Origin: a virus
IMG/VR virus record: IMGVR_UViG_3300040960_002974
Span: 1 to 24,643 of that record
Direction: 5' to 3' (one strand)
Length of the DNA stretch: 24,643 bases
Below the pieces are notes generated by a model. The model did no database searches. It was not told where the DNA came from and saw nothing but the letters and a program-made list of their open reading frames with translations. Position 1 is the first letter of the stretch; every line of letters starts with the position of its first letter. A program made the position numbers and the translations under genes. Positions 1,147-24,643 of this stretch are shown in pieces.

Positions 1147-1179
1147 CTCAGCTCAATAGCCACGGCACAATAAACCATT

Positions 1180-1240: not shown

Positions 1241-1261
1241 AATTCAATTGACGAGGTTAAC

Positions 1262-1914: not shown

Positions 1915-1915
1915 T

Positions 1916-2011
1916 GGGTCCTTCCTAGCCTCTGGAAAAGCCCGAGGGTTGGATACTCGCAGAAAGTCGCTCGTTTTTAAAATTTTCCATTTTTTGGGGT
2001 TTCCGGTTTCC
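1916..2011 (+). other. cos: cos site: cosQ, cosN and cosB elements, lambda-type
   Basis: The segment matches the recalled sequence around lambda cos with the same spacing. cosQ GGGTCCT is at 1916-1922. Thirty bases from its first G comes the predicted 12-base cohesive end GGGTTGGATACT (1946-1957; lambda GGGCGGCGACCT). Then come CGC, TCGCT (1967-1971), AAAATTTTCC (1979-1988) and GTTTCCG (1999-2005), all at lambda offsets. GGTTTCC is present twice in tandem (1998-2011), resembling a TerS-binding R element. TerS begins right after, as expected. The exact nick positions are inferred from the lambda alignment. Confidence 0.88.
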
Positions 2012-2026
2012 TATTGAGAATCTTTT

Positions 2027-2632: not shown

Positions 2633-4475
2633 ATATTTTCGCCTTCCTGAAGGTAGTTCTCAGATAGCCGGTGCTTGGGTCACTCAGCCTTTGCAGGTGG
2701 CTCTGCTAAATATGATGACCAACGACACGATAAAGATCGTGGCCATCAAAAAGTCTGCCCGTTTGGGTTACACCAAGATTATGGTTGCAGCCATGCTCTA
2801 TATGGCTGAACACAAAAAACGTTCGAGTGTTATCTATCAGCCAGTCGACGATGAGTCCGACGAGTTCGTCGTTGATGAAATCGATCCAGTGATTGCCGAG
2901 ATGCCTATTATCCAAAAGGTATTTCCAGACTGGTCAACGAAGAACGAAAAGAACAACTCAGGTAAAAAAGTATTCCAAGGTGCCACGTTAGATTTTCGTG
3001 GTGCAACTTCACCAGGTAACTTTCGTCGTTTGACCAAGCAGTGCTTGTTTGGTGATGAAATCAATGGCTGGCCACGAGAAGTGGGTAAAGCAGGCAAAGG
3101 TGAAGGTAACCCTATCAAACTTGCGCTGCAGCGTTTGAAAGGTGCGAGTTTCCCAAAAGCTGTATTTGGTACAACACCAACAGTCGCAGGTGAATCACAC
3201 ATTTCTGATTTGGTGTCAGATGCTGATTTAACATTTCGCTTCTGCTTGCCTTGTCCACATTGTGGCGTGGAGCAAACCTTAGAGTTTGGAGAGGACCAAG
3301 CAGGTCGTAAAGATTACGGCTTACAGTGGGATGATGAGTTAGACACCGTAGAGAAAAAAGCGCGCAGCGCCCATTACGTTTGCTGCAATCAAGATTGCGG
3401 TGAATCTTTCTATTACAACGACCTTACTCAGATGCAGTTAGATGGTCGTTGGATTGCTGAAGATTTGACTTGGACTAAAAACGGCAACGACTTTTATAGC
3501 CATGAAAATTTCCGAGTTACACCACCAAAGCATGTTGGCGTAGAAATCAACGCGCTCTATTCCCTGAACTTAGATGGTTGGGGTGAGCTGGTAGCGGAAT
3601 GGCTGAAAGCTAAAGGTAAGCCGCTTGATGAAAAAGCGTTTATCAACACCGTTCTCGGTCAAGATTACGAAGAGAACAAAGGTGAAAAGCTAGATTCTGA
3701 GGTCTTGGTGGAAAACCGAGAAGCCTACGATGCAGAAGTTCCTGAAGGTGTTCTTTATCTTACAGGAGGCATTGATAGCCAGCTCAACCGTTACGAATGC
3801 TTCGTATGGGGTTGGGGCATCGGTGAAGAGAAGTGGCTCATTGATACCCAAGTGGTTATGGGTGATTACGACAAAGAAGAAACGCTGCGTCGAGTTGATG
3901 ATGTCATTAACAAAACTTACACCAAGAAAGATGGCACCAAGATGGAAGTCGGTCGCTGGTGTTGGGATACAGGCGGCATCGATAGAGAGAAAGTCGATAA
4001 ACGAAGCCAGAAGCATGGCATCTTCCGAGTGATCCCGATTAAAGGTGCAAGTGCTTATGGTAAACCCATAGCTAACTTCCCTCGCAAGCGAAACAAAGAT
4101 GGTGTTTACCACACCGAAGTGGGTACTGATACCGCGAAAGATTTGCTCTATATGCAGATGCTTAACGTGCCAGACGAAAAGTGTGGCGCAGGTGTTATGC
4201 ACTTGCCGTTGAACGATGAAATCTGTGATGAAGTGATTTGTCAGCAAATCGCCTCAGAGAGACTTGTTGAAAAACGAGTGAATGGTAAGCGTGTCATGCG
4301 ATGGGATAACGAAGGTCGACGAAACGAAGCGCTTGATTGCTTGGTTTACGCCTTAGCTGCCTTGCGCATTTCTAAATCAAAGTTTGGCTTGAAACTAGAA
4401 GAATCAGAGCCAAAACAAAAAACAACCAAGAAAGTCGACATTAGTAAGCTCGGCGAACAAATGGGAGCGAATTAA
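2508..4475 (+). CDS. terL: Terminase large subunit (lambda gpA-like ATPase/nuclease)
   Basis: Close kinship to lambda gpA is readable over the whole 655 residues. The P-loop variant KSARLGYTK lies at about residues 82-90 (lambda KSARVGYSK), a Walker B-like LFGDE at 180-184, and a Cys cluster CLPCPHC / CCNQDC at 246-297. The nuclease region has GIDSQLNRYE, WDTGGID, FRVIPIKGAS and the C-terminal RRNEALDCLVYALAALR block. It cleaves at cos and pumps DNA into the procapsid with ATP. ATG 2508 gives an N-terminus of lambda-like length but has a poor ribosome site; ATG 2544 is an alternative. Translation is probably coupled to the long overlap with TerS. TAATG joins it to the next gene. Confidence 0.96.
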   Translation: MSSQKYKSISQTMKTAISRAVSRALSPLKITIPMTGVEWADKYFRLPEGSSQIAGAWVTQPLQVALLNMMTNDTIKIVAIKKSARLGYTKIMVAAMLYMAEHKKRSSVIYQPVDDESDEFVVDEIDPVIAEMPIIQKVFPDWSTKNEKNNSGKKVFQGATLDFRGATSPGNFRRLTKQCLFGDEINGWPREVGKAGKGEGNPIKLALQRLKGASFPKAVFGTTPTVAGESHISDLVSDADLTFRFCLPCPHCGVEQTLEFGEDQAGRKDYGLQWDDELDTVEKKARSAHYVCCNQDCGESFYYNDLTQMQLDGRWIAEDLTWTKNGNDFYSHENFRVTPPKHVGVEINALYSLNLDGWGELVAEWLKAKGKPLDEKAFINTVLGQDYEENKGEKLDSEVLVENREAYDAEVPEGVLYLTGGIDSQLNRYECFVWGWGIGEEKWLIDTQVVMGDYDKEETLRRVDDVINKTYTKKDGTKMEVGRWCWDTGGIDREKVDKRSQKHGIFRVIPIKGASAYGKPIANFPRKRNKDGVYHTEVGTDTAKDLLYMQMLNVPDEKCGAGVMHLPLNDEICDEVICQQIASERLVEKRVNGKRVMRWDNEGRRNEALDCLVYALAALRISKSKFGLKLEESEPKQKTTKKVDISKLGEQMGAN

Positions 4476-4687
4476 TGTCTGCATTATCGGATGCTGAGTT
4501 CCTAGCCGAACTCAAAAAAGCGTATCAACAATTAGTGCTTGGTAAGCAAGCCAAAGTTATCCAAAAAGATGGTCGTCGAGTGGAATACAACCCATCGGAG
4601 CGGCATATCTTGAAAGCGGAAATTGATAGTCTCGAAATGAAGTTGAATAACACTTCGATTCGTCGTCGGCCAGCGAGGTTGTTTTAG
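4475..4687 (+). CDS. Head-tail joining protein, lambda gpW-like
   Basis: This 70-residue protein matches lambda gpW (68 residues) in length, position between TerL and portal, and sequence. It has a helical N-terminus followed by KVIQKDGRRVEY (lambda RVATVQKDGRRVEF), a second helix and a basic C-terminal RRRPARLF. gpW enters the portal channel after DNA packaging and makes the site to which gpFII and the tail bind. Its ATG overlaps the TerL stop (TAATG) and its TAG overlaps the portal GTG, so translation is coupled on both sides. Confidence 0.93.
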   Translation: MSALSDAEFLAELKKAYQQLVLGKQAKVIQKDGRRVEYNPSERHILKAEIDSLEMKLNNTSIRRRPARLF

Positions 4688-6291
4688 TGAAAAACGTTAC
4701 AATTTTGCATCCTAGTGGCCGACCTGCAAGAGAGGTAATCGGCTTTGAAGGAGCTGGTGCAGGCTTTGGTGGTCAAATGGCTAACTGGGCGCCTCAGTTA
4801 ATGACCAATGATGCGGCACTGCTTCCTAATCTCGATTTAACACAGGCGCGAACTGATGATTTGGTTCGTAACAATGGCTACGCTGCAGGTGGATTAAGAC
4901 TCCACTTAGACAACATTGTTGGTCACCTTTTTAAACTTAACTGGAAGCCAATGTGGAAACGGTTAGGTTGGAAGGAGGAAGATTACCGCAAGATAAAAAC
5001 GGATGTGGAGCAGGCTTGGTTAGAGTTTGCTGAAGATGATCGCTGCTTTATCGATGCAGAACGCAAGCGAACATTTACCATGTTGGTTAGAGCGGCTTGT
5101 GCTCAGCATTTTACTTATGGCGATTCAATGGCTGCAGCCGAGTGGATCAGTCGTCGTCATTCTGACTTTAACACTGCTATCAAAATGATATCGCCTAAAC
5201 GAGTGCGAAACCCTGATGGCAATAACTTCTTGAATGAGAAGATTCGTGGTGGCATCAAACACGGACGTCACGGTAATGCTCAAGGTTATTATGTCTCGGA
5301 CCACAAGTACTTACTTCCATTAGCGAATATTAAGCAAAACTTTCGCTATGTACCGCGAGAAACGTGGTGGGGTCGACCTAAGTTTATTCATGTATTTGAT
5401 GCTCAAGATGATGGTCAAAGCCGTGGGCATTCAAGCCTAATGGCTGTCATGCAGCAAATGCACATGTTGGATAAGCTGCAACAAACCAAGCTACAAAATG
5501 CGATAGTCAATGCGATGTATGCCGCCACTATCGAGTCAGAGCTCGACTCTCAATCTGCTTTTGATTTCATTGCTGGCGGTGAAGATTCGCAAGATAAGCT
5601 TTGGCAATGGATGGCAGCGGTGAATAAGTACCATGCTGGTGCCAATATTCGTTTGGATGGTGTGAAAATACCGCACTTGATGTCTGGTGAGAAACTAAAC
5701 CTGCAGCGACCTAGCAATGCAGATAATGGTTTCAATCAACTAGAAGATTCATTTCTTCAATACATGTCAGCAGGCACAGGCTTACCGAAAGAACTCTTTA
5801 CTTATAACTTCCAAAAATCCAATTACTCCAGCGCTCGAGCTTCGCTTAACGAAGGTTGGCGTTACTTTATGGGTAAGCGGAAAGTGATCGCCAGTCGATT
5901 CGCTACCACCATCTTTGCATTGTGGCTAGAAGAGGCGGTAAGCAAAGGTGTGATCAAGCTGCCTAGCGGCACTAATTTTTGGGAAGCTCGCTCAGCTCTC
6001 TGTCGTGCGGATTGGATTGGCTCAGGCCGAATGTCCATTGATGGCGTGAAAGAGATTAAAGAGGCGATTCTTAAAATTGAATCCGGTCTTTCCACTTATG
6101 AAATTGAGTTGGCCAAGATGGGTGAAGATTACATTGAAATCTTTGAGCAGCAACATCGAGAGATGATTATCCGTAAAGAGAAAGGCTTGCCTCCACCTAG
6201 TTGGATGAACGCAGAAGCTTTTGCTCCTGAACAACCTGAACAAGAACAAAACGGAGGTAACAATGCCACCACCACACCTGAGTCAGTTTAA
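4687..6291 (+). CDS. Portal protein, lambda gpB-like
   Basis: The 534-residue length is nearly identical to lambda gpB (533). Family traits include the early ARTDDLVRNNGYAAGGLRLH segment, VVGH/LNWKP-like hydrophobic strands, the stretch GTGLPKELFTYNFQKSNYSSARASLNEGWR, and a polar Gln/Asn-rich tail. It forms the dodecameric ring at one capsid vertex through which TerL translocates DNA. In lambda the N-terminus is trimmed by the head protease encoded next. The start is GTG, one base overlapping the gpW stop. The end overlaps the protease gene by 29 bases. Confidence 0.96.
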   Translation: MKNVTILHPSGRPAREVIGFEGAGAGFGGQMANWAPQLMTNDAALLPNLDLTQARTDDLVRNNGYAAGGLRLHLDNIVGHLFKLNWKPMWKRLGWKEEDYRKIKTDVEQAWLEFAEDDRCFIDAERKRTFTMLVRAACAQHFTYGDSMAAAEWISRRHSDFNTAIKMISPKRVRNPDGNNFLNEKIRGGIKHGRHGNAQGYYVSDHKYLLPLANIKQNFRYVPRETWWGRPKFIHVFDAQDDGQSRGHSSLMAVMQQMHMLDKLQQTKLQNAIVNAMYAATIESELDSQSAFDFIAGGEDSQDKLWQWMAAVNKYHAGANIRLDGVKIPHLMSGEKLNLQRPSNADNGFNQLEDSFLQYMSAGTGLPKELFTYNFQKSNYSSARASLNEGWRYFMGKRKVIASRFATTIFALWLEEAVSKGVIKLPSGTNFWEARSALCRADWIGSGRMSIDGVKEIKEAILKIESGLSTYEIELAKMGEDYIEIFEQQHREMIIRKEKGLPPPSWMNAEAFAPEQPEQEQNGGNNATTTPESV

Positions 6292-7480
6292 CAACCGAGC
6301 GGTACTCATTGATTCACGCCATGTGATGGATGTGCATCATATTCCCGTAGTCAGCACTAAAGGCTTAACACCTGAAGCGGTAGCTTTAAGAACGGGTTTG
6401 AGTACCTCTAGCGATTATAAGCCTTACTCGTTTCAAGATGGCATTGCCATTATTAAAGCCGAAGGCGTTCTTATCCATAACTATGGATGGAGCAGCTCAT
6501 ACGCAACCGGATATGACGTTATCCAACGTAAGCTTCATTACGCATGGCACGACCCTGATGTAAAAGGCATCCTAATGCTTTTCAATACACCAGGTGGCAC
6601 CGTCCATGGTTGTCCTGATACAGGGGATTTAATCGCTCGTGTTGGGAAAGACAAACCAGTTTGGGGCTTGAGCGAAGACATGGCTTACTCGGCTGGTGAA
6701 TGGCTTCATTCTCAGTGTACACGACGCTTTGTTACGCAATCTGCTGGCCTCGGCAGCGTTGGCGCACGAATCACTCATGTCGATATGTCAAAGGCGTATG
6801 AAGAGCATGGATTCAAAGTCACCATGATCTTTGATGGTGAGCACAAAGTGGATGGTAACCCTTTTGAAGCTTTGCCAGAAAACGTTAAAGCCTCATTGCA
6901 GCAAGAAGTTTCAGAGATTCGACAGCAGTTTGCGTCCATGGTCGCAACGGGCACTGGAATGACCCTTGAAGCGGTGCTGGAAACAGAAGCTCAGTGCTAC
7001 ACAGGACAACACGCCGTTGATATTGGTTTGGCTGAATCCGTCGTTAACCGTATCGATTTAATTCAACAATTCATTGAACACCTGCGTAAGCAGGATAAAA
7101 CCAACTTAGCAGGTATCACTATGTCAGTAACAAATGAAGAGATCACTGCTTCAAAGCAAGACGAACGAACTCGCATTAAAGCGATCACTGCTTGTGAAGA
7201 AGCGAAAGGTAAGAGAAAACTTGCAGAGTACCTTGCTTATGAAACGGATATGTCGCAAGAAGAAGCAGTAAAAATTCTTGCGGCCTCGGAAGCTCAAGGT
7301 GCTGCACCTCAAACTCCTGAAACAAAAGCCGATGGCTTTACTCAGGCAATGGGTAGCGAGCAACATCCGAATCTATCCTCCGATGCTGATGACGCGAACG
7401 AAGAAGAGGATGATGAATCACCTCAAGCTATCGCTGCGCGCATGGCAAAATCTCACCAAGCAGCGAAAGGTTATAAATAA
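6263..7480 (+). CDS. Head maturation protease of the S49 (SppA/gpC) family with C-terminal scaffold
   Basis: ATG 6263 follows an excellent ribosome site (GGAGG, 5 bases upstream). A longer frame from 6221 lacks one. The 405-residue protein has a ClpP/crotonase-fold protease: GVLIHNYG near the N-terminus, ILMLFNTPGGTVHG as the oxyanion region, and MAYSAGEW with the likely nucleophilic Ser, then GLGSVGA. The last ~120 residues are Glu/Ala-rich and helical, the lambda gpC/Nu3 arrangement in which the C-terminus also acts as scaffold. It would process portal and scaffold during capsid maturation. An internal start for a separate scaffold lies at 7121. The stop overlaps the next ATG (TAATG). Confidence 0.93.
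   Translation: MPPPHLSQFNNRAVLIDSRHVMDVHHIPVVSTKGLTPEAVALRTGLSTSSDYKPYSFQDGIAIIKAEGVLIHNYGWSSSYATGYDVIQRKLHYAWHDPDVKGILMLFNTPGGTVHGCPDTGDLIARVGKDKPVWGLSEDMAYSAGEWLHSQCTRRFVTQSAGLGSVGARITHVDMSKAYEEHGFKVTMIFDGEHKVDGNPFEALPENVKASLQQEVSEIRQQFASMVATGTGMTLEAVLETEAQCYTGQHAVDIGLAESVVNRIDLIQQFIEHLRKQDKTNLAGITMSVTNEEITASKQDERTRIKAITACEEAKGKRKLAEYLAYETDMSQEEAVKILAASEAQGAAPQTPETKADGFTQAMGSEQHPNLSSDADDANEEEDDESPQAIAARMAKSHQAAKGYK
7121..7480 (+). CDS. Nested scaffold protein (lambda Nu3-like internal start)
   Basis: An in-frame ATG at 7121 sits exactly at the border between protease and scaffold parts, with an AGCAGG ribosome-like site about 7 bases upstream. It would yield a 119-residue, strongly charged helical protein ending in an acidic stretch (NEEEDDE) and KSHQAAKGYK. 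In lambda the equivalent internal start makes Nu3, the bulk scaffold on which the coat shell assembles, in excess over the full-length protease. The position and composition fit well, but internal initiation is inferred from the sequence only. Confidence 0.65.
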   Translation: MSVTNEEITASKQDERTRIKAITACEEAKGKRKLAEYLAYETDMSQEEAVKILAASEAQGAAPQTPETKADGFTQAMGSEQHPNLSSDADDANEEEDDESPQAIAARMAKSHQAAKGYK

Positions 7481-7824
7481 TGGCTCAGACGACTTTAGAT
7501 TATGCTCACTATATCAGTGGCGACACTAACATCGAGCACGCAACGGTTACGATTGCAGCAGGTGAAAATGTTGCTCAGTTTACACCGTTAAAGTTTGATT
7601 CAACGAGCGGTCACTTCAAAGCAATGACTAACGCTGAATCTAATGCTCAGTATTTATCAGCGTTCGCTGTAGATGCGACAAGCGGTGCTAAATCTCACGC
7701 AGCGATCAAAGCGATTGCTATTACTCCTTCTGCAGTTAATTGGCCTGATGGTTTGGCTGAAGAGAAAAAAGAAGGTGTATTCGCTGGTACGCCAATTAAC
7801 GTGCAAGAGCAGCAAGCTGTTTAA
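7480..7824 (+). CDS. Capsid decoration protein, lambda gpD-like
   Basis: The 114-residue product has the gpD hallmarks: an N-terminal HxxG...AHAT-like strand, TPLKFD (lambda TPLMLD), an Ala-rich middle, NWPDG before EEKKEGVFAGTPI near the C-terminus (lambda LWPEA...KKRTAFAGTAISI). Trimers of gpD cap the three-fold sites of the expanded shell and stabilise it against DNA pressure. It lies between scaffold and capsid as in lambda. An intrinsic terminator follows within 30 bases, probably setting its dosage relative to the capsid gene. Confidence 0.93.
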   Translation: MAQTTLDYAHYISGDTNIEHATVTIAAGENVAQFTPLKFDSTSGHFKAMTNAESNAQYLSAFAVDATSGAKSHAAIKAIAITPSAVNWPDGLAEEKKEGVFAGTPINVQEQQAV

Positions 7825-7852
7825 TCTTTCTGCCACTGTTTTCTTAAAAGTA

Positions 7853-7878
7853 AAAGCCGCTATTTGAGCGGCTTTTTT
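7853..7878 (+). terminator. Intrinsic terminator between decoration and capsid genes
   Basis: A 9-bp perfect stem, AAAGCCGCT (7853-7861) with AGCGGCTTT (7867-7875), has a 5-base loop and six T. The capsid ribosome site GGAG begins four bases after the T run, so any transcript ending here stops just before the capsid gene. Confidence 0.88.
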
Positions 7879-7894
7879 CATGGAGTCTATTTTT

Positions 7895-8926
7895 ATGTAT
7901 AGCCCTGTTGCTACCGCAGTGTTGATTGCACTGCACCAAACGCTACCACCTCAATATGAGCCAGCGTTAAAGAAGTTCTACGTCAAAGGCATTGTCACTT
8001 TTAACACTTCAGAAGTGCTTTTCGACAAAATCAAGAAAGGCCGCAAGCTAGCTCCGCTAGTTTCACCAATGGTTTCTGGTAAACCTCAACGTGCGAAATC
8101 AGCAGTTCAACAATCCATTACGCCAGCTTACGTTAAGCCAACAGATGCAGTGACATCTGATCGCTTAATGAAACGCATGCCTGGTGAACGTCCACTGGGT
8201 GACTTAACGCCAACTCAACGTCGTGAAGCTATCATTTCAGATATGCTCATGGAGTTTGATGCATCCATTGAACGACGTGAAGAGTGGATGCTTGTTCAAA
8301 TGCTTACCACTGGTCGTGTAGTGCTTGAAGGTCCAGACTTTGAAGCAGTAGAAATCGACTATGGTCGAAGTGCTAAAAACCAAGTGACGTTGATTGGTGC
8401 TGATTGTTGGGATCAGCTGGATAAAGATACCAGCACCAAGCCTCTCGAAGACATTGAAGCTTGGGCTGATAACTGTAATTCACTGGCCGATCACGTTGCA
8501 ATGTCCAAGTCGAATTGGTCTTTGTTAAAGCAGTTTAAGTGTGTCAAAGACATCATGGATACTCGTCGTGGTTCTAAGTCTAACGGTGAGCTTGGCCCAC
8601 TTAATAACCAAGCATTTAAGTGGGTTGCAACGGTTGGTGAGTATGAAATTTATGTATCCAATGGTACGTATGAAAACGACGCTGGCGTGGATACGAAGTA
8701 CTTCCCAGATAATGGTGTTCTAGTTGGTTCATCGGCTGCTGAGATTTACATGGCTTATGGCGGTATTCAAGACGTCAAAGCGAATGCTCAGGGCATTGTT
8801 GAAACAGAGCGTTATCCGTCGAACTGGTTCCAAGATAACCCATCGGTAGAAATGCTGCAGATGCAATCAGCGCCAGTGCCTGTCATGTTTGATGCAGATG
8901 ACTTCTGTTTCGCAGCAGTGCGTTAA
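7895..8926 (+). CDS. Major capsid protein, lambda gpE-like
   Basis: The product is 343 residues from ATG 7895 (lambda gpE 341). This start is favoured over ATG 7880 because GGAG lies 9 bases upstream and MYSPVATA matches lambda MYTTAQLL in position. Readable family blocks are VSPMVSGKPQR, TPAYVKP, RRREAIIS/LMEFDASIERREEWM, VEIDYGRSAKNQVT, DTRRGSKS, YFPDNGVLVGSSAA, YGGIQDVKANAQGI, RYPSNWF and MLQMQSAPVPVMFDADDF. It forms the icosahedral shell. Terminators lie directly before and after, isolating it as a separately tuned transcript segment. Confidence 0.97.
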   Translation: MYSPVATAVLIALHQTLPPQYEPALKKFYVKGIVTFNTSEVLFDKIKKGRKLAPLVSPMVSGKPQRAKSAVQQSITPAYVKPTDAVTSDRLMKRMPGERPLGDLTPTQRREAIISDMLMEFDASIERREEWMLVQMLTTGRVVLEGPDFEAVEIDYGRSAKNQVTLIGADCWDQLDKDTSTKPLEDIEAWADNCNSLADHVAMSKSNWSLLKQFKCVKDIMDTRRGSKSNGELGPLNNQAFKWVATVGEYEIYVSNGTYENDAGVDTKYFPDNGVLVGSSAAEIYMAYGGIQDVKANAQGIVETERYPSNWFQDNPSVEMLQMQSAPVPVMFDADDFCFAAVR

Positions 8927-8945
8927 GCAAACATTTAACCCATCA

Positions 8946-8974
8946 AAAGCCGCAGTTTAGATTGCGGCTTTTTT
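8946..8974 (+). terminator. Intrinsic terminator after the capsid gene
   Basis: A perfect 9-bp stem AAAGCCGCA / TGCGGCTTT (8946-8954 with 8963-8971), 8-base loop and a six-T run. It is nearly the same stem sequence as the terminator before the capsid gene. Confidence 0.9.
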
Positions 8975-8989
8975 ATTTGGACAATACTC

Positions 8990-9382
8990 ATGGCGAAAAA
9001 AGATTTAATAGCGGTCATCCTTGGGCTTGAAAGTGATTTGAAAGCTGAAGGTGTGACGTTTGAGTCAAATAACCTGACCGAAAAGGACAACACCGAGGCT
9101 CAGATCAAAGAAGAGATCGTGCGCTTGGAAGCCTTACTGCCATCTGAAGATGATGGAGAAGGTGGATCAGGCGAAGGCTCTGGTGAAACCATAGGCCCAA
9201 CAGGCGAACAAAGTAACACTGACGTGGAAGAAGTTTGGAATATCAAGCTTAACAAAGGTGTGAACATTGAGCTTGTTGTTGATGGTAAGCGTGTCGTTCT
9301 TCAGGGTGGCAAAACACACCAGTTTGGTGCTGCTTATGCCAAAGAAATCCTAGCTAAAAATCTAGGTGTGCAAGAAGAGTAA
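8990..9382 (+). CDS. DNA-packaging protein, lambda gpFI-like
   Basis: The 130-residue protein starts MAKKDLIAVILGLESDL, close in style to lambda FI (MTKDELIARLRSLGEQL). It then has a Glu/Gly/Ser-rich acidic linker (about residues 52-75) and a small C-terminal beta domain ending GKTHQFGAAYAKEILAKNLG, equivalent to the end of FI. In lambda FI helps the terminase-DNA complex meet the prohead and raises packaging efficiency. The location between capsid and FII agrees. The acidic linker is low-complexity, so only the two ends carry family signal. Confidence 0.82.
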   Translation: MAKKDLIAVILGLESDLKAEGVTFESNNLTEKDNTEAQIKEEIVRLEALLPSEDDGEGGSGEGSGETIGPTGEQSNTDVEEVWNIKLNKGVNIELVVDGKRVVLQGGKTHQFGAAYAKEILAKNLGVQEE

Positions 9383-9389
9383 ACTTTCA

Positions 9390-9410
9390 TGGTCCTCACA
9401 TTGAGGGCCA
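9390..9410 (+). other. Short hairpin between FI-like and FII-like genes
   Basis: TGGTCCTCA (9390-9398) pairs with TGAGGGCCA (9402-9410) with one G-U wobble and a 3-base loop. No T run follows, so it is at most a weak terminator or RNA processing signal. Confidence 0.4.
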
Positions 9411-9425
9411 TTATCAGGATTTTCT

Positions 9426-9794
9426 ATGTTTGATGATTTTGACAGCCTGCTTGCGGAAGCAGATAAAGAAATTATGTCCGCTTTTGGCAATGTGGATGTA
9501 TTAGTTCAAGGCGTTGATTCGATTCGTGGGATCTTCGATGCCGAGCAGCAGATAGCAACTCTTGATAATGGTGGCAAGGTATCAACTTACTCAGCAAGAG
9601 TATCTTTGAAAGCCTCAGAAGCTAGTCACCTTGGCCGACGAACCAAGGTCGAAATTAAATTCTCTAATGGTCGCAGCGAGTTTTATCGGGTCATGGATAC
9701 CGAAGATAACAAAGACGGTGAAATGATTGCTTATCTCAAAGTAGATGGAGAGAACGCTAATGCTCAGCAACCAACATCAACTATTCGATATTGA
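9426..9794 (+). CDS. Head-tail attachment protein, lambda gpFII-like
   Basis: The product is 122 residues (lambda FII 117). It begins MFDDFDSLLAEADKEI (lambda MADFDNLFDEAIARAD). It continues with a beta-strand core containing RGIFDAEQ (lambda RGVFDDPE) and a C-terminal VMDTEDNKDGEMIAYL strand pair. FII binds the gpW-portal complex and forms the ring to which the finished tail docks. Here the tail is of P2 type, so the tail-facing surface must fit a different partner than in lambda. The end overlaps the Z-like gene by 35 bases. Confidence 0.87.
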   Translation: MFDDFDSLLAEADKEIMSAFGNVDVLVQGVDSIRGIFDAEQQIATLDNGGKVSTYSARVSLKASEASHLGRRTKVEIKFSNGRSEFYRVMDTEDNKDGEMIAYLKVDGENANAQQPTSTIRY

Positions 9795-10350
9795 TTTAGA
9801 TGAGCTTGAAGCAATCCGTAAAAGCGTAGGCGCAACACCAAAAGAAATGGTGAAAGCCTATGGTCGGGCTCTGGCGAGAACAGCGGTAACATTTAGAAAG
9901 CTTAGCTCCAAACACCTTAAAGAAGAACTGCAGGCAAAAAGTGCCAAAGTGATTCGAAACAGGTTGAAGCAGTTCAAGATAAAAGCGACAGGTAATAATC
10001 TTGATGAGCTCAAGCTTTGGTACGGTTTGAATCCGTTACCAGTGAGCTCTCTTAAAGGGCGCATTAAGCGTATTGGTACTAAGCGTTCGCCCAATGGCGC
10101 AAGCTTCTCTCCCTCATCGTCATCACTAAAGGCTGAAACTTACGATAAGGGCTTTATTGCTCGGTTGAATGGCCCTCGCTCTATCTATCTTCGAACCGGA
10201 AAAGGTAAGTGGAATATTACTGAAGCCAAGGTTGATATCAATGATGAAATTCATGTGGCGATAGAAGACGAGATTTTTAGCCTGATACCAGAGATTTTTA
10301 TTAAGCATTTCACTACAGATTTGAAAGGTCGGGTGGCGATTAGAAAATGA
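9760..10350 (+). CDS. Tail completion / minor tail protein, lambda gpZ-like
   Basis: ATG 9760 is chosen over ATG 9745 because GGAG lies about 9 bases upstream. The 196-residue product (lambda Z 192) is basic with a helical N-terminal half (MVKAYGRALARTAVTFRKLSSKHLKEEL), then RNRLKQF, LKLWYGLNPLPVS and a C-terminal strand-rich part with YLRTGKGKWNI. The family acts at the head-tail joint, where lambda gpZ is needed for tails to attach productively and position the DNA end. It is the last recognisable lambda-type gene before the P2-type tail block. It overlaps the next gene by ATGA. Confidence 0.8.
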   Translation: MLSNQHQLFDIDLDELEAIRKSVGATPKEMVKAYGRALARTAVTFRKLSSKHLKEELQAKSAKVIRNRLKQFKIKATGNNLDELKLWYGLNPLPVSSLKGRIKRIGTKRSPNGASFSPSSSSLKAETYDKGFIARLNGPRSIYLRTGKGKWNITEAKVDINDEIHVAIEDEIFSLIPEIFIKHFTTDLKGRVAIRK

Positions 10351-10925
10351 ATATCAACATGCATGAATACCACGAGGCGATTAAGAATTGGCTACAAGGC
10401 CATGAGCAGCTCTCTAGTTGGTTTAAATTGATAGATCGCTATCCAGAAGAAAGCACCAAGCTTACCACACCGTTTCTTCTCTATTCCGTTGGTGATTGGG
10501 ACAAAGACAGCGAACAACCTGCTGGTGGCCAAAAAGCATGGAATTTGAGCCTAACTTTTCATGTTGGGATCAACAATCTTGATGAAGATAATCCAGAAAA
10601 AACGGGTGCTGACTTGCAGATATTACTGCGTGATTTGGCAATGGCTGCTTGCACACATTTGGACGAATCACGATTCGATCTGAAAGGCTCTGTGGGCAAT
10701 GTCATCGTCTCATCTTGTGAGTATGATGCTCTGGCGACAGAACTGGATGAATACATTGTCTATGCAATTTCAGCCAATCAACGCTTTTTGACCAGTAACA
10801 ACCATGAGTCATTAGCGGCTCAAGAGTTTGTTACAGGCGGTGCATCAAAAGTGGGCTATTCACCGAAGATTGGTGCGGCTCATGAGGCTGATTACGAAAC
10901 GATTTATGATGAAACGGGTGAGTGA
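10347..10925 (+). CDS. Probable tail terminator / tail completion protein
   Basis: The 192-residue product has an alpha/beta composition with a strand-rich core (FLLYSVGDWD, WNLSLTFHVGIN), a helical DLQILLRDLAMAAC segment and a C-terminal VIVSSCEYDA strand. This resembles the small alpha/beta tail-terminator proteins that cap the last tube or sheath ring. It sits exactly between the lambda-type head genes and the P2-type spike gene, where lambda has U and P2 has R/S. No close family was recognised by eye; the role is inferred mainly from place and size. ATGA overlaps couple it to both neighbours. Confidence 0.55.
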   Translation: MNINMHEYHEAIKNWLQGHEQLSSWFKLIDRYPEESTKLTTPFLLYSVGDWDKDSEQPAGGQKAWNLSLTFHVGINNLDEDNPEKTGADLQILLRDLAMAACTHLDESRFDLKGSVGNVIVSSCEYDALATELDEYIVYAISANQRFLTSNNHESLAAQEFVTGGASKVGYSPKIGAAHEADYETIYDETGE

Positions 10926-11557
10926 TGTCTTTAACTGAAATTCAACGCACTCTAAGTCGGATGGAGCAGCGCATTAGCAACCTTATCCGTATAGGTCGTG
11001 TGGCTGAAGTTCAGGATTCACCACCTCGGGTCAAAGTGGAATACGACAAAGATGCCGGCGGGAAGCCAGTATTAACTGCTTGGCTTCGCTACTTTGAAGA
11101 GCGGCAAGGTTTTGTTCAAACGTGGAACCCACCCAAAGTGGGAGAGCAGTGCACCATATTATCGCCTTCAGGCGTGCTGAGAATGGGCGTAGTCTTGCTC
11201 GGTTTAAACACAACCAATAAACCTCCCATTAGCAGCGATAGCAGCGTTCACCAAATTAAGTTTGAAGATGGAAGTACCTTTGCTTTTAATCGCGCCTCTA
11301 GCCAGTGGGACATTTCATTGGGTGGCGGTAGTGCAAGCTTCAATGGTGTGATGTTCACTTTTAACGCTGATCTGTTTGTTAATGGTGACATCATTCAAGT
11401 GGGTGATTTTGACCAAGAAGGCAACATTACAACTACCGGAAATATCATCGGTAACATGGTGTCGGATTCAATTGGGTCCATGGTCGCAATTCGTACCACT
11501 TACAACGGTCATCATCACAACGCTCGTCCTGAACCACCCACTATCTTAATGAACTAG
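10925..11557 (+). CDS. Baseplate spike protein, P2 gpV-like
   Basis: I take ATG 10925 (TGATG overlap) rather than GTG 10922. At 210 residues it matches P2 gpV (211). An N-terminal helix is followed by an OB-fold-like region (IRIGRVAEVQDSPPRVKVEYD ... VGEQCTILSPSG). Then comes a repetitive beta-helix (FNADLFVNGDIIQVGDF, GNITTTGNIIGNMV) and a C-terminal tip with the HHHN motif, where P2 spikes bind an iron ion through a HxH pair. It is the membrane-piercing needle at the tail tip. Confidence 0.92.
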   Translation: MSLTEIQRTLSRMEQRISNLIRIGRVAEVQDSPPRVKVEYDKDAGGKPVLTAWLRYFEERQGFVQTWNPPKVGEQCTILSPSGVLRMGVVLLGLNTTNKPPISSDSSVHQIKFEDGSTFAFNRASSQWDISLGGGSASFNGVMFTFNADLFVNGDIIQVGDFDQEGNITTTGNIIGNMVSDSIGSMVAIRTTYNGHHHNARPEPPTILMN

Positions 11558-12797: not shown

Positions 12798-13345
12798 GTC
12801 TTCTTCCTGCTAATGCGACCAGCTTTGAGCACTCCTTAGAGCAGGTCATGAACTCAGATATGAGCTCACCTATCAGACATCTTTGGAATCCGTTGCTATG
12901 CCCATTGGAGCTACTCTGGGTATTGGCCATCGTATTTCAGGTGGATGAATGGGATGAGAAATGGAGTGAGGCGAATAAACGTCAGACACTCATCGATGCT
13001 TATTTAGTTCATTGCTACAAAGGTACGCCAGATTCAATTAAGCGAATATTGAGGAATGCTGGCTATCCTGATGCTCGAATCGTTGAAGGTACGGGTGATC
13101 TTAATTATGACGGTACTGCTACTTACAACGGTCACTATTATTACGGATTTGAAGAAGCTTGGGCTGAATATCGAATCTACCTTCCTCGGCCAATAACCGA
13201 AGGTCAAGCAAAACAAGTCCAAAGACTAATCATCGCCACCGCACCACTGCATTGTATTCTCAAAGGTTTGCATTACGAAACTGCAGCCTTCTTGTATGAC
13301 GGAACAATCAGTTATGACGGTCAATATACATATGGAGAAACTTAG
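12794..13345 (+). CDS. Baseplate/tail protein, P2 gpI-like, with YDGT repeats
   Basis: The 183-residue product (P2 gpI 176) has the family N-terminus LLPANATSFEHSLEQVM and the segment LWNPLLCPLELLWVLAIVFQVDEWD. These are followed by RQTLIDAYLVHCYKGTPDSIKRIL. A YDGT-x2-Y-x-G-x-Y-x-YG motif occurs twice: about residues 103-118 and again at the C-terminus, 166-181. gpI sits at the wedge and connects to the tail fibre encoded next. The aromatic repeats may be part of the fibre-docking region (inference). Confidence 0.92.
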   Translation: MSLLPANATSFEHSLEQVMNSDMSSPIRHLWNPLLCPLELLWVLAIVFQVDEWDEKWSEANKRQTLIDAYLVHCYKGTPDSIKRILRNAGYPDARIVEGTGDLNYDGTATYNGHYYYGFEEAWAEYRIYLPRPITEGQAKQVQRLIIATAPLHCILKGLHYETAAFLYDGTISYDGQYTYGET

Positions 13346-14043
13346 TGGCTGATAATCATTTACCAGAAGAAGCTGTTTGGGAAAACGGCATTCGTCAGAT
13401 TGAAACTACGGACGTGGTTATAGGTGGGGTAGACGGCGTGCCTAATATAGCGCCCAAGCAATTAGCTAATAGAACCTCATTTTTAAAGAAAAAAGCTGAA
13501 GACCATGAAGGACATGAAAACCCTCATCCTCAGTATGCTAGTAAATCTAGTGTTGACGATTTGTTGGCTGAGAAAACAATAAGTGTAGATAATCTCTATT
13601 ATGCCAGAGACGAAAAACCATCAGGAACAACTAGCGGTAATACTTTAGCTGGTCAATTTAATGTCAGAGACATTAATACTGAAGTTGTCAGCAATATACC
13701 TGGGGTACTGCTCGCCAACAATCAAGTAAGCTTGCCAAAAGGTAACTATTGGATTGAAGCATTAGCACCAGTTTTTGCTGTTAGACACCACCGACTTCAC
13801 TTGTACAATGTTACTGATGGTGAATATCCCTTAAAAGGGCAAAGTGGCTTTGCTCAAAACTCAGGCAGCGCCCAACTCGCCGTAGCATCACTCTTTGGTT
13901 ATTTGTCGATACAAGAAGACAAAATAATAGAGCTTAGACATTATACGGATCAGGCCGTAGCTGGAGGATTTGGGATGTTATCTGATGATGGGTCGCCCGA
14001 AGTATTCGCAGAGTTGAAAATTTGGAGAGTAGGAAATGAGTAA
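13345..14043 (+). CDS. Tail fibre protein (short, P2 gpH-type N-terminus)
   Basis: The start is GTG 13345, overlapping the gpI stop, with GGAG about 8 bases upstream. The N-terminal half has the fibre signature IAPKQLANRTSFLKKKAEDH...NPHPQYASK, where HPQY motifs are common in trimeric fibres. The rest is strand-rich and ends FAELKIWRVG, as many globular fibre tips do. At 232 residues it is much shorter than P2 gpH (669), so the shaft is short. It would bind the host receptor and decide host range. The gene and the next look richer in A+T than the sheath gene, in keeping with exchange of receptor-binding modules. Confidence 0.85.
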   Translation: MADNHLPEEAVWENGIRQIETTDVVIGGVDGVPNIAPKQLANRTSFLKKKAEDHEGHENPHPQYASKSSVDDLLAEKTISVDNLYYARDEKPSGTTSGNTLAGQFNVRDINTEVVSNIPGVLLANNQVSLPKGNYWIEALAPVFAVRHHRLHLYNVTDGEYPLKGQSGFAQNSGSAQLAVASLFGYLSIQEDKIIELRHYTDQAVAGGFGMLSDDGSPEVFAELKIWRVGNE

Positions 14044-14455
14044 ATACGCGTTAATAAGGGAAGGTGTAGTTACGAAAATTAGTTGTAACCCATCGAGTGG
14101 CTTGATCAAGGTTCCTGAATCGGTCGTCGTGGGAATGACACAGAAGGTATTAGGATCAGATATTGTATATGTTGATGAAAACTCATCGTATAAATCAGAA
14201 CAAGTTAAAGCCAAGCGAGAATATGATTGGGCATACAACGAGTTATTAGTTGCAGATGTCGAAATTAATAAACACCTAGACTCATCTGCTGCGGCTTCTT
14301 TTTCAGAACAAGGTTGGCGTAGTTATAGAAATGCTCTAAGAGAGTATTGCTCGTCATCCATAAATGATAACGGCGATATCGAATATAAAGTAAACGATAT
14401 TTCAAATAATCATTTGACCGATGAAGCTGGACGTCCAAGTCCACCAACTAACTAA
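14036..14455 (+). CDS. Tail fibre assembly chaperone
   Basis: The 139-residue protein overlaps the fibre gene end by 8 bases. It has the common architecture of tail-fibre chaperones: an N-terminal small beta domain (YALIREGVVTKIS...) and a helical segment with AKREYDWAYNELL. The diagnostic SEQGWRSYRNALREYC motif (W..YR..LR.Y) follows, with a polar tail. Such proteins fold or trimerise their fibre and are matched to it, so the pair is exchanged as a unit. Two intrinsic terminators follow directly. Confidence 0.85.
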   Translation: MSKYALIREGVVTKISCNPSSGLIKVPESVVVGMTQKVLGSDIVYVDENSSYKSEQVKAKREYDWAYNELLVADVEINKHLDSSAAASFSEQGWRSYRNALREYCSSSINDNGDIEYKVNDISNNHLTDEAGRPSPPTN

Positions 14456-14543: not shown

Positions 14544-16022
14544 ATGGCAAGATTCCTCCATGGCGCAGAAGTTATTGAAGTTAATGACGGTGTGCGCTCA
14601 ATCTCAACGGTCAAAATGGCGGTTATCGGTATTGCAGTGCAATCAGCGATGGCAGCAGGCGCAGTTGCTGCGACGCTAACGCTCGGATCTTCTGCTTTGG
14701 GTGATGACCTTACATTTACAGCTAAAACTGCTGGGCAAGATGGTAATAAAATTAATATTACGATTGCTGAAACGACTGAAGCCAGTCAGGACATTGTCGT
14801 TTCGGTGGCTGGTGATGCTATTACCATCACACTTGGAACCGACGCACAAGGTGACACCATTAGTAAAGTCACCGACGTAGTCACTGCCTATGAAGCAGTG
14901 CCAGAGGCGCTGGCCAAAGCACTTATTAGCACTTCAACTGAAGCGGCTAAAGCTGAAATTCCCTCAGCAATTAACAAGCAGTTCTTAGCAAGCGGTGCGA
15001 ATGAACCCTTCCCACTCTATAAGCCGACATTAGTGCTTGGTAATGAGCGTTATGCGGAAGGTCTCGGTGTTACTTCTCAGGCTTACAAATACATCAAGCA
15101 AATCATGGAGCAGTATGGTGCTGTGGTTGTTGTGGTTCGCGCTGAAACCTCAGCCGATGAAGCGACTCAAAAGTCCAACATCATCAAAGCTATCGATGCG
15201 CTTAAAGATTCGAAGTCAGAAGTAGGCTATACGCCTCGTATCCCGATTGCACCTGGTTACAGTCACGACGACGCCGTTGGTAAGGCATTGGAAAGTGCAG
15301 CGGTTAAGCTTCGTGGTGTTGCCTATCTGGATATGGATGTTGCTGCCACGTTCACTGATGCGATGAAGCGCGTGAAATCATACAACGATCGTGTGGAAAT
15401 TATGTGGCCACAGGATGTGGTGTTTGATACGGACCTAAACACGAACGTGCCAATGCCTAAATCGGTATCCGCAGCAGGCTTGCGTGTGCGTATTGATGAA
15501 GAGCGCGGTGTTCACGTATCTAAATCGAACAAAGACATCTACAACGTTGTGGCGACCAATCAGCAGGTCGAGTTCTCATTAAATGATGCGAGCACACTGG
15601 CCAACATTCTTAACGAAAACCGAGTGAGCACTACGATTCGTGAAGGCGGTTTCCGTCACTGGGGCAACCGTACCTGCGCTATTGATCAGAAGTGGACGTT
15701 TGAAACTACTCGTCGTGTTGCTGACATGATTAATGACAGCATTGAACGTGCGCACATGTGGGCAGTCGATGAGCCAGGTACCACTCAATACATGCAAGAT
15801 GTGCTTGGTGGTATCAATGCTTATCTTCGTCAGTTGAAAAACGAAGGTGTTATCCCGGGCGGTAGCGCATGGCTCGATAAAGAACTCAACACGCCAGAAC
15901 TTATGGCTCAGGGTATTTACTACTTTGATTTTGACTTTGGTGTTTACTATCCGGCAGAGCACTTGATCTTCCGCTCTCGCCTCAACAATGGCTATTTAGA
16001 AGAGGAAATTGCGAATGTCTAA
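14544..16022 (+). CDS. Tail sheath protein, P2 gpFI-like, with inserted domain
   Basis: The ends match P2 FI: HGAEVIEVNDGVRSISTVKMAVIGI at the start, then FPLYKPTLVLGN, GYTPRIPIAPGYS, LRVRIDEERGVHVSKSN, GGFRHWGNRTC, AHMWAVDEPGT, DVLGGINAYLRQLKNEG and YYFDFDFGVYYPAEHL. Sheath subunits contract to drive the tube into the cell. It has 492 residues against 396 in P2. The surplus is one block at about residues 36-152, Ala/Thr/Val-rich with alternating strands (LTFTAKTAGQDGNKINITIA, DIVVSVAGDAITITLGTDAQGDT). It probably forms an extra outward domain. Confidence 0.94.
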   Translation: MARFLHGAEVIEVNDGVRSISTVKMAVIGIAVQSAMAAGAVAATLTLGSSALGDDLTFTAKTAGQDGNKINITIAETTEASQDIVVSVAGDAITITLGTDAQGDTISKVTDVVTAYEAVPEALAKALISTSTEAAKAEIPSAINKQFLASGANEPFPLYKPTLVLGNERYAEGLGVTSQAYKYIKQIMEQYGAVVVVVRAETSADEATQKSNIIKAIDALKDSKSEVGYTPRIPIAPGYSHDDAVGKALESAAVKLRGVAYLDMDVAATFTDAMKRVKSYNDRVEIMWPQDVVFDTDLNTNVPMPKSVSAAGLRVRIDEERGVHVSKSNKDIYNVVATNQQVEFSLNDASTLANILNENRVSTTIREGGFRHWGNRTCAIDQKWTFETTRRVADMINDSIERAHMWAVDEPGTTQYMQDVLGGINAYLRQLKNEGVIPGGSAWLDKELNTPELMAQGIYYFDFDFGVYYPAEHLIFRSRLNNGYLEEEIANV

Positions 16023-22063: not shown

Positions 22064-23020
22064 TTAGAATTTTTCTAACGCTTCATTTGACAAGGTCTTA
22101 TCAATAAATTCCTCAATGGCCTTTAGCGAGTCATCTGAAACCTTTGGAATATTGATCGTAGCGTTGCCATTCTTTAATGCGACCGTGGCCCCCATTGCCA
22201 GCTCGCGAGGTTTCATTGGTTCAGGCTTGCTAATGCCACATTTCTTAATGAAGAATCCCACCAACTCCTCAGCGTTGTATTTTCCTTTCTCTTTACACCA
22301 CGCTTCAAAGAAAGTGATCAACCCATCCTGTTGCTGTTCATCCAGTTTTTTGTATGCTTTGAATAGCGTTTCACCTTGTCTGGCGCTCAAGTCATTAGGG
22401 CTAGGTAAAGCTTTGATGAATGGCTTAGGAAGCATAGCGGTGTACACTTCTCGCATCATTGCACGACGACCTTTACCTACAGCCACGGATGCTTCCTCTT
22501 GGCTTTTGCCACTATTCAATAAACGTAATGCCTTTTGACCTTGTTCATATGCCGAGGTTGGTCGGTAATTGTTGCCGACTTCGCTCAGGTAATTCATCTG
22601 ATCGTCTGATAGGTCGCCAACCCAAATATAAAAGTCACTCTTTGCTGTTATGGCAGTAAAACGACGTCGGCTACCGTCAGCTACCTGAATAACACCACAC
22701 TCTTCACGGCCGAAAGCGGGTACTTCTTGTCCGTACTCTTTAAATGTTGGCAAAATGTCTGAAATGGCGAATTCATCGAGTAGCTCTTGATCACGCTCGT
22801 TCTCTAGCCAAACCATGGTCGATAGGTCGACTTTTTTGGCAGGAATCTTCTTGAGCGTAAAAGTAACTTCGACGCCCTTAACAGGCTTAGTGAGTGTGTT
22901 TCCTACCTGTTCGTCTAGCTTTTCAGATACTTTTACAGGTGCGCTTTTGTCGCGCTTACCTCTGATTCGAACCGTTGAGACGCTGGACTCTTTTATTTCA
23001 ACATTGAGATCGTTTTTCAT
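22064..23020 (-). CDS. parB: Partition protein ParB (P1 ParB / F SopB type)
   Basis: The 318-residue length matches SopB (323). A basic, flexible N-terminus is followed by the ParB N-domain with the diagnostic box ADGSRRRFTAI at about residues 114-124 (the arginine patch that binds CTP in this family). Then come the helix-turn-helix part SGKSQEEASVAVGKGRRAMMREVYTAML and a C-terminal dimerisation region with strand-helix ATINIPKVSDDSLKAIEEFIDKTL. ParB loads at parS and stimulates ParA ATPase to separate plasmid copies. The start lies one base after the parA stop, with GGAGG inside the parA end, so the two are translationally coupled. The parS site is not certain. Confidence 0.94.
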   Translation of the reverse strand: MKNDLNVEIKESSVSTVRIRGKRDKSAPVKVSEKLDEQVGNTLTKPVKGVEVTFTLKKIPAKKVDLSTMVWLENERDQELLDEFAISDILPTFKEYGQEVPAFGREECGVIQVADGSRRRFTAITAKSDFYIWVGDLSDDQMNYLSEVGNNYRPTSAYEQGQKALRLLNSGKSQEEASVAVGKGRRAMMREVYTAMLPKPFIKALPSPNDLSARQGETLFKAYKKLDEQQQDGLITFFEAWCKEKGKYNAEELVGFFIKKCGISKPEPMKPRELAMGATVALKNGNATINIPKVSDDSLKAIEEFIDKTLSNEALEKF

Positions 23021-23021
23021 G

Positions 23022-24185
23022 TTATTCAGCCTCCCACATCGGTTTTAAGATAGTGTCTAGAATCTCATTGAATGGTGCGTCATAAATTGCCGTTGCACGT
23101 TTCCAAGCTGCTGGAGAGCTTCGCTCAGATGCGCCATTTTGCTCGTAGATAGTGACGCCCTTGCGTTGACCTTTCCCCACTTCATCGGTGAAGTAAACGC
23201 CGCTGTTTAGTGGCATTCCGCTCCAGAATCGGTGCATGTCCTGCACGTTCTTTAGGCTTGAGCTGTGTTCAGCACCTAGTTTGGTCGGTAATACGCGCAC
23301 ATATGGCTCGTCTAGCTGCTCTGGACCGTTAGGCTGGTATATATCTCGAATCAACCCCATAAGCTGGCAAGTCGAGTTCATGTCGTTCACTTCGGCAGAT
23401 GTTGCGATAAGTACCACATCGCTTGCGCAGATCATATTGGTTGTACCTAGACCCAAATCAGGGTGGCCATCAATGATGATAACGTCGTAGCTATCTTGCA
23501 CAGTCATTAGACCGGCTCGTAACATTTGGTCGGCTGGATATTCGATATCCGCATCAAGCAGTTCGCTTTCGATACGCTGCAGCTGCAGGTTGCTTGCGAT
23601 GATCTCTAGCTTTGGCCATGCAGTTTCGTTTATGCAGTATGTTAAGTCGTCTTTCTCGCCTAGCATGAACGGCAGTACCGTGTCGTTCACATCGGTATTC
23701 AGCTCAGGATGGTAGCCGAAGTACATCGAACCGTGCGCTTGTGGGTCGATGTCAACGAATAGAACGCGATAGCCTTTTAGTGATAGCCATTGCGCCAGAT
23801 GCACGGCTGTCGAGGTTTTCCAGCAGCCTCCTTTACCACCAGGAACTGATACCGTGATTGGGTAGGTTTCCATTACCTGGTAGGGCTGCTTTTTAAATAC
23901 GTCGCGCATATGGTCGATTTGGGCCAGCGTGTAACCTAATCGGATTGGACGAGGTGAGTTGGATTCCTTGTATTCCGGTTGCGGCAGGCGACCTTCTTTC
24001 TCGGCCTTGCGGATAGCTTCGCTTGTAACACCAATCATGTCTGCAGCTTCATTTATACCAAAGCGACGATTTAGAACTCTGGCTTGTGGCGAGTCATCAC
24101 CAAACTTCTTCTTGGCTCTTGCTCTTGACCAGTCGTTGAATGAGTCGATGCACGCCTGCATCTGCTCAGAAAGTGTTTGTGACAT
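23022..24185 (-). CDS. parA: Partition ATPase ParA (P1 ParA / F SopA type)
   Basis: The 387-residue size is that of large type Ia ParA proteins (P1 ParA 398, SopA 388). An N-terminal DNA-binding region with helix-turn-helix INEAADMIGVTSEAIRK (about 44-60) is followed by RPIRLGYTLAQIDHMRDVF. The deviant Walker A motif GGKGGCWKTS is at 116-125, Walker A' VLFVDIDPQ at 141-149, and Walker B-like VIIIDGHPDLG. It moves ParB-bound plasmids over the nucleoid and, in this class, represses its own promoter through the N-terminal domain. Ribosome site GGAGA precedes ATG 24185. A sigma70-type promoter with repeated GTTTGC motifs lies just upstream. Confidence 0.96.
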   Translation of the reverse strand: MSQTLSEQMQACIDSFNDWSRARAKKKFGDDSPQARVLNRRFGINEAADMIGVTSEAIRKAEKEGRLPQPEYKESNSPRPIRLGYTLAQIDHMRDVFKKQPYQVMETYPITVSVPGGKGGCWKTSTAVHLAQWLSLKGYRVLFVDIDPQAHGSMYFGYHPELNTDVNDTVLPFMLGEKDDLTYCINETAWPKLEIIASNLQLQRIESELLDADIEYPADQMLRAGLMTVQDSYDVIIIDGHPDLGLGTTNMICASDVVLIATSAEVNDMNSTCQLMGLIRDIYQPNGPEQLDEPYVRVLPTKLGAEHSSSLKNVQDMHRFWSGMPLNSGVYFTDEVGKGQRKGVTIYEQNGASERSSPAAWKRATAIYDAPFNEILDTILKPMWEAE

Positions 24186-24205
24186 TTCGTATCTCCATCT
24201 TTAGC

Positions 24206-24265
24206 GGTTTGCACTAAATATAATGGTTTGCCTTTTTTGTGTAAACCACTTTTATTTTTGCAAAC
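24206..24265 (-). promoter_or_regulatory. parA promoter with repeated GTTTGC operator motifs
   Basis: On the minus strand, -35 TTTACA (24245-24240) and -10 TATATT (24222-24217) are exactly 17 bases apart. Four related motifs cover it: GGTTTGC at 24206-24212 and 24225-24231, its complement form GTAAACC at 24241-24247, and GCAAAC at 24260-24265. They overlap the start region, the spacer, the -35 box and the upstream flank. This is the layout expected for autorepression by ParA (with ParB as corepressor in the P1 and F systems). Binding is inferred. Confidence 0.78.
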
Positions 24266-24598
24266 TGTAGTAATGCACTTATTGTGATTTAACTCTCATA
24301 AAATGGTAAGGATTAACCATTCACAATGTTGTCTTTGTTTCTCTAACAATCAGCTCTTTGCTATTTCCGTTTTTATTTTCTTTTAAATCATGTACTTATA
24401 TATAAATAGGAAGAAGGGAAATAGAAGCATGAAATCTAAGTAACTAGATAAAGAGGCTAGTTTTTGATGATTAGCCTCTCGTAACACAAGATTGGGCAAA
24501 AGTGGTATGAATGAAAAGTTACAAAATAATAAATATACATAGGTTAAATTGCGATAATGCAAAACGTTACACATTTATAATGTATCGTCATTTATAGA
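24266..24598. other. AT-rich non-coding stretch between parA promoter and terminal palindromes
   Basis: No convincing gene was found. It holds a 6-bp inverted repeat AATGGT/ACCATT (24302-24321), an 8-bp inverted repeat (separate entry), and the motif ACGTTACA at 24564-24571, which recurs in the nearby 16-bp palindrome. It is a plausible place for the parS centromere and telomere-proximal protein sites. Confidence 0.6.
24452..24479. repeat. Inverted repeat AGAGGCTA / TAGCCTCT
   Basis: Perfect 8-bp arms at 24452-24459 and 24472-24479 are separated by 12 bases. No strong T run follows on either strand, so it is not a clear terminator. It could be a protein-binding site such as part of parS, or a weak terminator for transcripts heading from the end towards parA. 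Confidence 0.5.
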
Positions 24599-24614
24599 TA
24601 TGTAACGTTACATA
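24599..24614. repeat. 16-bp perfect palindrome next to the end
   Basis: TATGTAACGTTACATA is a perfect palindrome centred at 24606/24607, separated by one base from the terminal palindrome. Its length and symmetry resemble ParB-binding parS sites, but it could equally be an accessory arm of the telomere resolution site. An ACGTTACA copy lies 35 bases upstream. Confidence 0.7.
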
Positions 24615-24615
24615 C

Positions 24616-24643
24616 CACTAAGTATTTACGTAAATACTTAGTG
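24616..24643. other. Terminal 28-bp perfect palindrome, candidate telomere (telRL/telR)
   Basis: The arm CACTAAGTATTTAC (24616-24629) is followed by its exact complement, so the palindrome is centred at 24629/24630 on TTTACGTAAA and stops at the last base of the window. Protelomerases of N15-type phages cut and rejoin such palindromes into hairpin ends. In N15 the partition genes lie towards this telomere, as here. An assembled read running around a hairpin end gives exactly this kind of terminal inverted repeat. Confidence 0.72.

Follow-up and report, generated by a model that had tools for sequence, protein, structure and literature searches.

A 28-bp terminal palindrome as the probable right hairpin telomere of a linear Vibrio phage-plasmid

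The viral DNA analyzed here, a window of 24,643 bp, stops on the last base of a perfect palindrome that lies beyond a plasmid-type parA gene. Is this palindrome the tip of a linear replicon, or does it have some other origin? The linear phage-plasmid lifestyle and the protelomerase family are already known from N15, PY54, VP882, phiHAP-1, and VP58.5. Linear phage-plasmids of Vibrio were reported again in 2026 (PMC13230959). We assign the window, with a probability of about 0.95, to a temperate Vibrio phage with a contractile tail that persists as a linear plasmid prophage; the window would be its right arm, and the last bases of the window would form the right hairpin telomere.

The terminal sequence, CACTAAGTATTTACGTAAATACTTAGTG, is its own reverse complement over 28 bp and is the longest perfect palindrome found in a scan of the window. 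Apart from this sequence and a 16-bp palindrome nearby, no perfect palindrome of at least 16 bp was found in the 24.6 kb. The scan and the gene annotation bear out the original observation of a perfect 28-bp palindrome, centered on ACGT and flush with the last base beyond a plasmid-type parA. The end is also that of the parent record: the record (G000) is a single 24,643-base contig, classed as linear by IMG/VR. A chance origin was rejected, as the probability of a perfect palindrome in the last 28 bases is approximately 4e-9 given the composition of the window and 3e-8 given that of the AT-rich last 460 bases; for a perfect 28-bp palindrome anywhere in the window it is approximately 1e-4. The final 54 bases, taken as single-stranded DNA, fold much better than shuffled sequences (z = -5.7, 0/200).

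Because a terminase large subunit is present, the replicon is a phage. The window also encodes portal, capsid, sheath, and tape measure proteins (Table 1). The leftward genes parA and parB are the last before the end, and a myovirus lysis-packaging-head-tail block makes up the remainder of the window. The palindrome lies 430 bp from parA, on its upstream side, and a promoter-like site for parA on the minus strand (24245-24217) is no more than expected by chance. No protelomerase, replication gene, or left telomere was found in the 24,643 bp, the left arm being missing from the record; in particular, the window encodes no RepA-type replication protein, and the relative ST2-1pr encodes a PriCT-2 protein. 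Relatives have a conserved inverted repeat close to parB (AAACCCC...GGGGTTT, once per region searched); it was considered as a centromere and set aside, as the version in the window, CCCACTGTTCCCGCAGTGGG followed by T-runs, looks like an ordinary terminator. Tail-fibre-like genes are located at 13345-14455, between the baseplate and sheath genes; the equivalent region is the break point between two phage records described below, ST2-1pr and ST2-2pr.

Table 1. Features of the window relevant to the right end, with coordinates on the 24,643-bp stretch.
Feature	Position	Strand	Remarks
Terminase large subunit	2508-4475	+	GpA_ATPase / GpA_nuclease, PHROG 15
Contractile tail sheath (myovirus)	14544-16022	+	Pfam Phage_sheath_1C, PHROG 23
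Small HTH regulator, 115 aa	20724-21071	+	Pfam HTH_3, E = 2.8e-8; adjoins parB in relatives, same place in ST2-2pr
parB, centromere-binding partition protein, 318 aa	22064-23020	-	PHROG 1146, E = 8.9e-88
parA, plasmid partition ATPase, 387 aa	23022-24185	-	Pfam AAA_31, E = 3.9e-31; PHROG 164 (ParA-like), E = 1.2e-79
Non-coding right-end region, parA to telomere	24186-24643		
Further half-box AACGTTAC, 60-67 bp from dyad	24563-24570		Putative functional box; similar box in left arms
Outer palindromic box, 16 bp, TATGTAACGTTACATA	24599-24614		Second-longest perfect palindrome in the window
GTAACGTTAC box, 19-28 bp from dyad	24602-24611		Probable protelomerase-binding box; conserved at this distance in both arms of all group-A relatives
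telR core	24616-24643		Half-site 24616-24629 plus 14 bases past the dyad (24629/24630); same 28-mer at both telomeres of relatives
Central TACGTA	24627-24632		Predicted 6-base stagger; hairpin turn expected at 24629/24630 (by analogy with TelA; contig G007 starts at the dyad)

A palindrome near parA could instead be a terminator or a regulatory operator that coincides with the contig end by accident, and partition operators can contain inverted repeats. The dyad is perfect, however, with no unpaired spacer; its G+C content is 29%, there is no G+C stem with a T-run, and a terminator scan returned nothing at the 28-bp palindrome. This explanation, which we regard as extremely improbable, is refuted by the identical 28-mer beside a protelomerase gene at the other end of relatives and by related contigs that read around the site.

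Among GenBank records, Vibrio phage ST2-2pr (MZ496294.1, L004) comes closest to the window's end, with 94.6% identity over 22064-24643 (2.6 kb). The structural genes of the two ST2 records differ from those of the window. ST2-2pr likewise terminates past parA, its final 126 bp forming a perfect palindrome around the identical 28-mer. A companion record, ST2-1pr (MZ496293.1, L005), ends in another perfect 126-bp palindrome with the same core, beside a 687-aa protein labeled hypothetical. The flanks of the two palindromes are arm-specific. Both records were deposited as circular and complete, and they map in a single order onto G002 (45,051 bp), a contig with parA at one end and a protelomerase gene at the other: ST2-2pr covers 7-11,386 at the parA end and ST2-1pr covers 12,261-45,051 at the protelomerase end. 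ST2-1pr has an open frame cut off at its internal start, and the start of ST2-2pr lies inside another, which fits a break in the tail-fibre region. On this mapping, a single linear phage-plasmid genome comprises ST2-2pr as its right arm and ST2-1pr as its left arm.

An exact search of IMG/VR for the 28-mer returned one other contig, G001 (80,970 bp), which carries it at its exact middle with 40,485 bases on either side. The inner 868 bp of each side are exact inverted copies, as are the outermost 2,971 bp, and a protelomerase gene comes next on both sides of the center. Judged by this layout, G001 is a head-to-head dimer about the left telomere. A related palindrome and a protelomerase gene had been expected at the other end of the genome; both were found in relatives, where the protelomerase gene lies beside the identical 28-mer in ST2-1pr, G001, and Vibrio zhanjiangensis.

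The 687-aa protein of ST2-1pr matches Pfam ResT-TelK_cat (E = 2e-27) and TelK_muzzle, as well as PDB entry 2v6e, the solved phage protelomerase TelK (E = 4e-60). The catalytic residues R291, K316, R404, H437, and Y446 are invariant in 11 aligned phage protelomerases. By homology, this "hypothetical" protein is a protelomerase of the TelK/TelN/ResT type. A scan of genome collections located the protelomerase only in Vibrio, and the PLSDB plasmids include only two relatives.

We then surveyed IMG/VR for the neighborhoods of relatives of the window's ParA (15 loci) and of the protelomerase (8 loci). A contig end falls just past parA in 14 of the 15 ParA loci (at 224-530 bp in 13 and 1,248 bp in one), and the protelomerase gene starts 46-209 bp from a contig end in half of the other set (4/8). 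Among these contigs, a perfect palindrome reaches the very end in G008 (48 bp, on the left), in G009 (98 bp on the left, 68 bp on the right), and in G010 (94 bp on both sides). As the arms differ outside the core, the palindromes of G009 and G010 do not derive from an intact R-L site; arm-specific palindromes at both ends can therefore only have come from hairpin read-around or from replicated L-L and R-R junctions. By this reasoning, both contigs represent linear genomes whose two tips were read around. G007 begins right at the dyad, and G011 begins one base before it. Chimerism in library construction or assembly can also produce palindromic contig ends, but the same core occupies the corresponding position in independent records that come from different assemblies and hosts, and some of these have intact telRL sites away from assembly ends; we consider chimerism refuted and assign it a negligible probability. 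In keeping with the predicted fold-back at the dyad, related contigs read back on themselves there.

Together, the same palindrome at the other end of relatives, the N15 gene order, and the contigs reading back at the dyad support the right-telomere assignment. These sequence comparisons confirm, at the level of homology, that the 28-bp palindrome represents the right half of an N15-type telomere-resolution site and marks the right extremity of a linear Vibrio virus genome.

A narrower question is which form of the molecule was sequenced. The record might represent virion or circular DNA with an intact telRL at which the assembler halted in the ambiguous palindromic core, the last 14 bases then being the left half-site. 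At this point the sequence reads identically for hairpin read-around and for an intact telRL, because the 14 bases past the dyad lie in a stretch common to both arms, being identical between them on each side of the dyad. Further out, the two would differ: read-around of the right arm past the dyad would give ...GGTATGTAACG..., mirrored beyond 24643 as ...TTAGTGGTATGTAACG..., and an intact telRL would continue into left-arm sequence such as ...GGTGAGTAACG.... Intact junctions between parA and a protelomerase gene do exist, in V. vulnificus Per2, G012, Valp1, and K242, and V. zhanjiangensis carries an intact R-L junction with the window's own 28-mer. Reads of at least 100 bases should nevertheless have crossed into the left arm, as in the records with intact junctions, and the majority of relatives with parA go no further than the dyad. 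We consider sequencing of an intact telRL rather unlikely, and the sequenced molecule itself likely ended in a hairpin.

Dimers of TelA, TelK, and TelN make a 6-base staggered cut in a palindrome and form 3'-phosphotyrosine links, after which the strands are refolded and sealed (PMC3558466, PMC10612081); the stagger of TelA is 6 bp (PMC3558466). In an analogous cycle, the circular or virion form would join the right half-site (24616-24629 plus the GTAACGTTAC box) to the matching left half-site upstream of the protelomerase gene, creating a palindromic telRL. A dimer of the phage protelomerase would bind the core and the boxes through predicted contacts and would make staggered cuts about TACGTA by way of its tyrosine, at positions taken from the TelA model. 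Each strand would then be folded back and sealed, so that both ends carry a hairpin. The L-L and R-R junctions that arise on replication would be resolved by the same protelomerase, and ParAB would segregate the linear plasmid.

Alignment of the arms toward the dyad separates the sites into two groups. In group A, which includes the window, the core is ACTAANYATTTAC, the center is TATTTACGTAAATA (CATTTACGTAAATG in G008), and the GTAACGTTAC box occupies 19-28 bp from the dyad. The left and right arms of group A agree for approximately 30 bp and then diverge apart from scattered GTTAC half-boxes; the left arms have a box similar to AACGTTAC approximately 66-73 bp from the dyad. Group B (Valp1, K242, G009, and G010) shares the center TATTTACGTAAATA and has CACACGTGTG or a similar sequence as the box at 19-28 bp.

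The enzymes were compared by domain, with approximate borders drawn from Pfam matches and the TelK alignment. Within group A, identities are 64-100% in the catalytic domain and 55-100% in the stirrup; between groups A and B, they are 52-57% and 28-34%, respectively. The G008 enzyme is 39-46% identical to other group-A enzymes in the N-terminal and muzzle domains and 55-61% in the stirrup, and its site keeps the GTAACGTTAC box. The C-terminal 100 residues cut across this grouping: Per2 is 82-84% identical to K242, Valp1, and G010 and 81% identical to Val-yong3, and the other domains of Per2 and Val-yong3 are 19-27% identical. This correlation among related sequences suggests that the stirrup reads the outer box and that the C-terminal domain is shuffled freely. 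One model, to which we give even odds, is that of modular, recombined telomere systems with a fixed center TATTTACGTAAATA, an outer box swapped between GTAACGTTAC and CACACGTGTG-like forms, a stirrup that changes with the box, and a C-terminal domain that is shuffled independently. If so, the telomere specificity of the window would be orthogonal to that of group B despite the common core, and such enzyme-site pairs would allow one to read which enzyme domain recognizes which part of the site. As a separate observation, the C-terminal ~100 residues are 81-84% identical between distant Vibrio protelomerases that are 19-56% identical over the remainder, regardless of telomere type; the loci concerned are L005 31281-33344, L018 8227-10326, L016 4609-6612, and L011 363-2405.

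How does this system compare with known telomere phages? N15 (TelN/telRL) is likewise a linear phage-plasmid with a palindromic resolution site, and the order parB-parA-telRL-protelomerase is common to N15 and the relatives of the window. The N15-like right end foreseen for the window, with its partition region, is present as parA and parB at 22064-24185. In contrast, the 56-bp telRL of N15, an E. coli phage, is centered on CGCGCG and is unrelated to the window's site except for TACG..CGTA about the center; the relatives' protelomerase is ~29% identical to TelN. The suggestion of a new specificity therefore holds in that the site differs from N15 telRL, but the site is not unique, as the same 28-mer is present in public Vibrio records. 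Valp1 and K242 are alike in the 14-bp center and in having homologous parAB, with a protelomerase 41% identical to that of ST2, and differ in having CACACGTGTG where group A has GTAACGTTAC, at the same distance from the dyad. VP882 and phiHAP-1 share the central TACGTA and a homologous protelomerase (~30% identical), although the flanks of their site (CCCATACTATACGTATAGTATGGG) are unrelated. In VP58.5/VHML-like phages, which are marine telomere phages from Vibrio (PMC11054321), the telRL center is TCTAATTAGA and the protelomerase is ~22-28% identical.

No paper giving the core sequence was found in the literature searched, which excluded the original descriptions of VP58.5 and phiHAP-1, and we found no recognition of the 28-mer as a telomere in the public Vibrio records that contain it. 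The Valp1 and HY01 papers name a protelomerase, and their passages on telomeres and hairpins describe no telomere site. We judge that the kind of system is known and that the site group is newly recognized, undescribed in the literature searched. Few protelomerase-site pairs are known, and this group enlarges the set by a further type of telomere site and the enzymes that go with it; such pairs also serve as tools for the production of closed linear DNA.

Hairpin ends are also a trap for databases: one linear phage-plasmid is stored as two circular phages (ST2-1pr and ST2-2pr), others as 81-kb mirror dimers (G001 and V. chagasii p2), and phage HY01 has lost its telomere and parA. Contigs that end flush with a palindrome next to parA or a protelomerase gene offer a usable signature in the search for further cases. 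Palindrome lengths (28, 48, 68, 94, 98, and 126) were considered as the assembler word length minus one. Since every perfect palindrome has an even length, we keep this as a side remark: it is favored solely by two cases in which the ends of an assembly match in length (126/126 and 94/94) and by the value of 126 against a common k = 127.

The HY01 record (MT366580.1, L010 2789-4247) has lysis-type genes and a tRNA in place of parA and telRL, and a passage of the HY01 paper states that ParA is absent. A draft-genome contig (L046) that is 100% identical to HY01 over parB has parA adjoining parB and continues toward the telomere; judging from this alignment, the HY01 record is probably misjoined by misassembly in the parA/telomere region. 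In V. chagasii p2 (NZ_AP025468.1, L019 8066-16070), a plasmid whose record is an 81-kb circle, the sequence beyond the dyad repeats what precedes it in inverted and degraded form for more than 7 kb, with 66-91% identity in pieces. This copy likely reflects a long-read turn-around at the hairpin.
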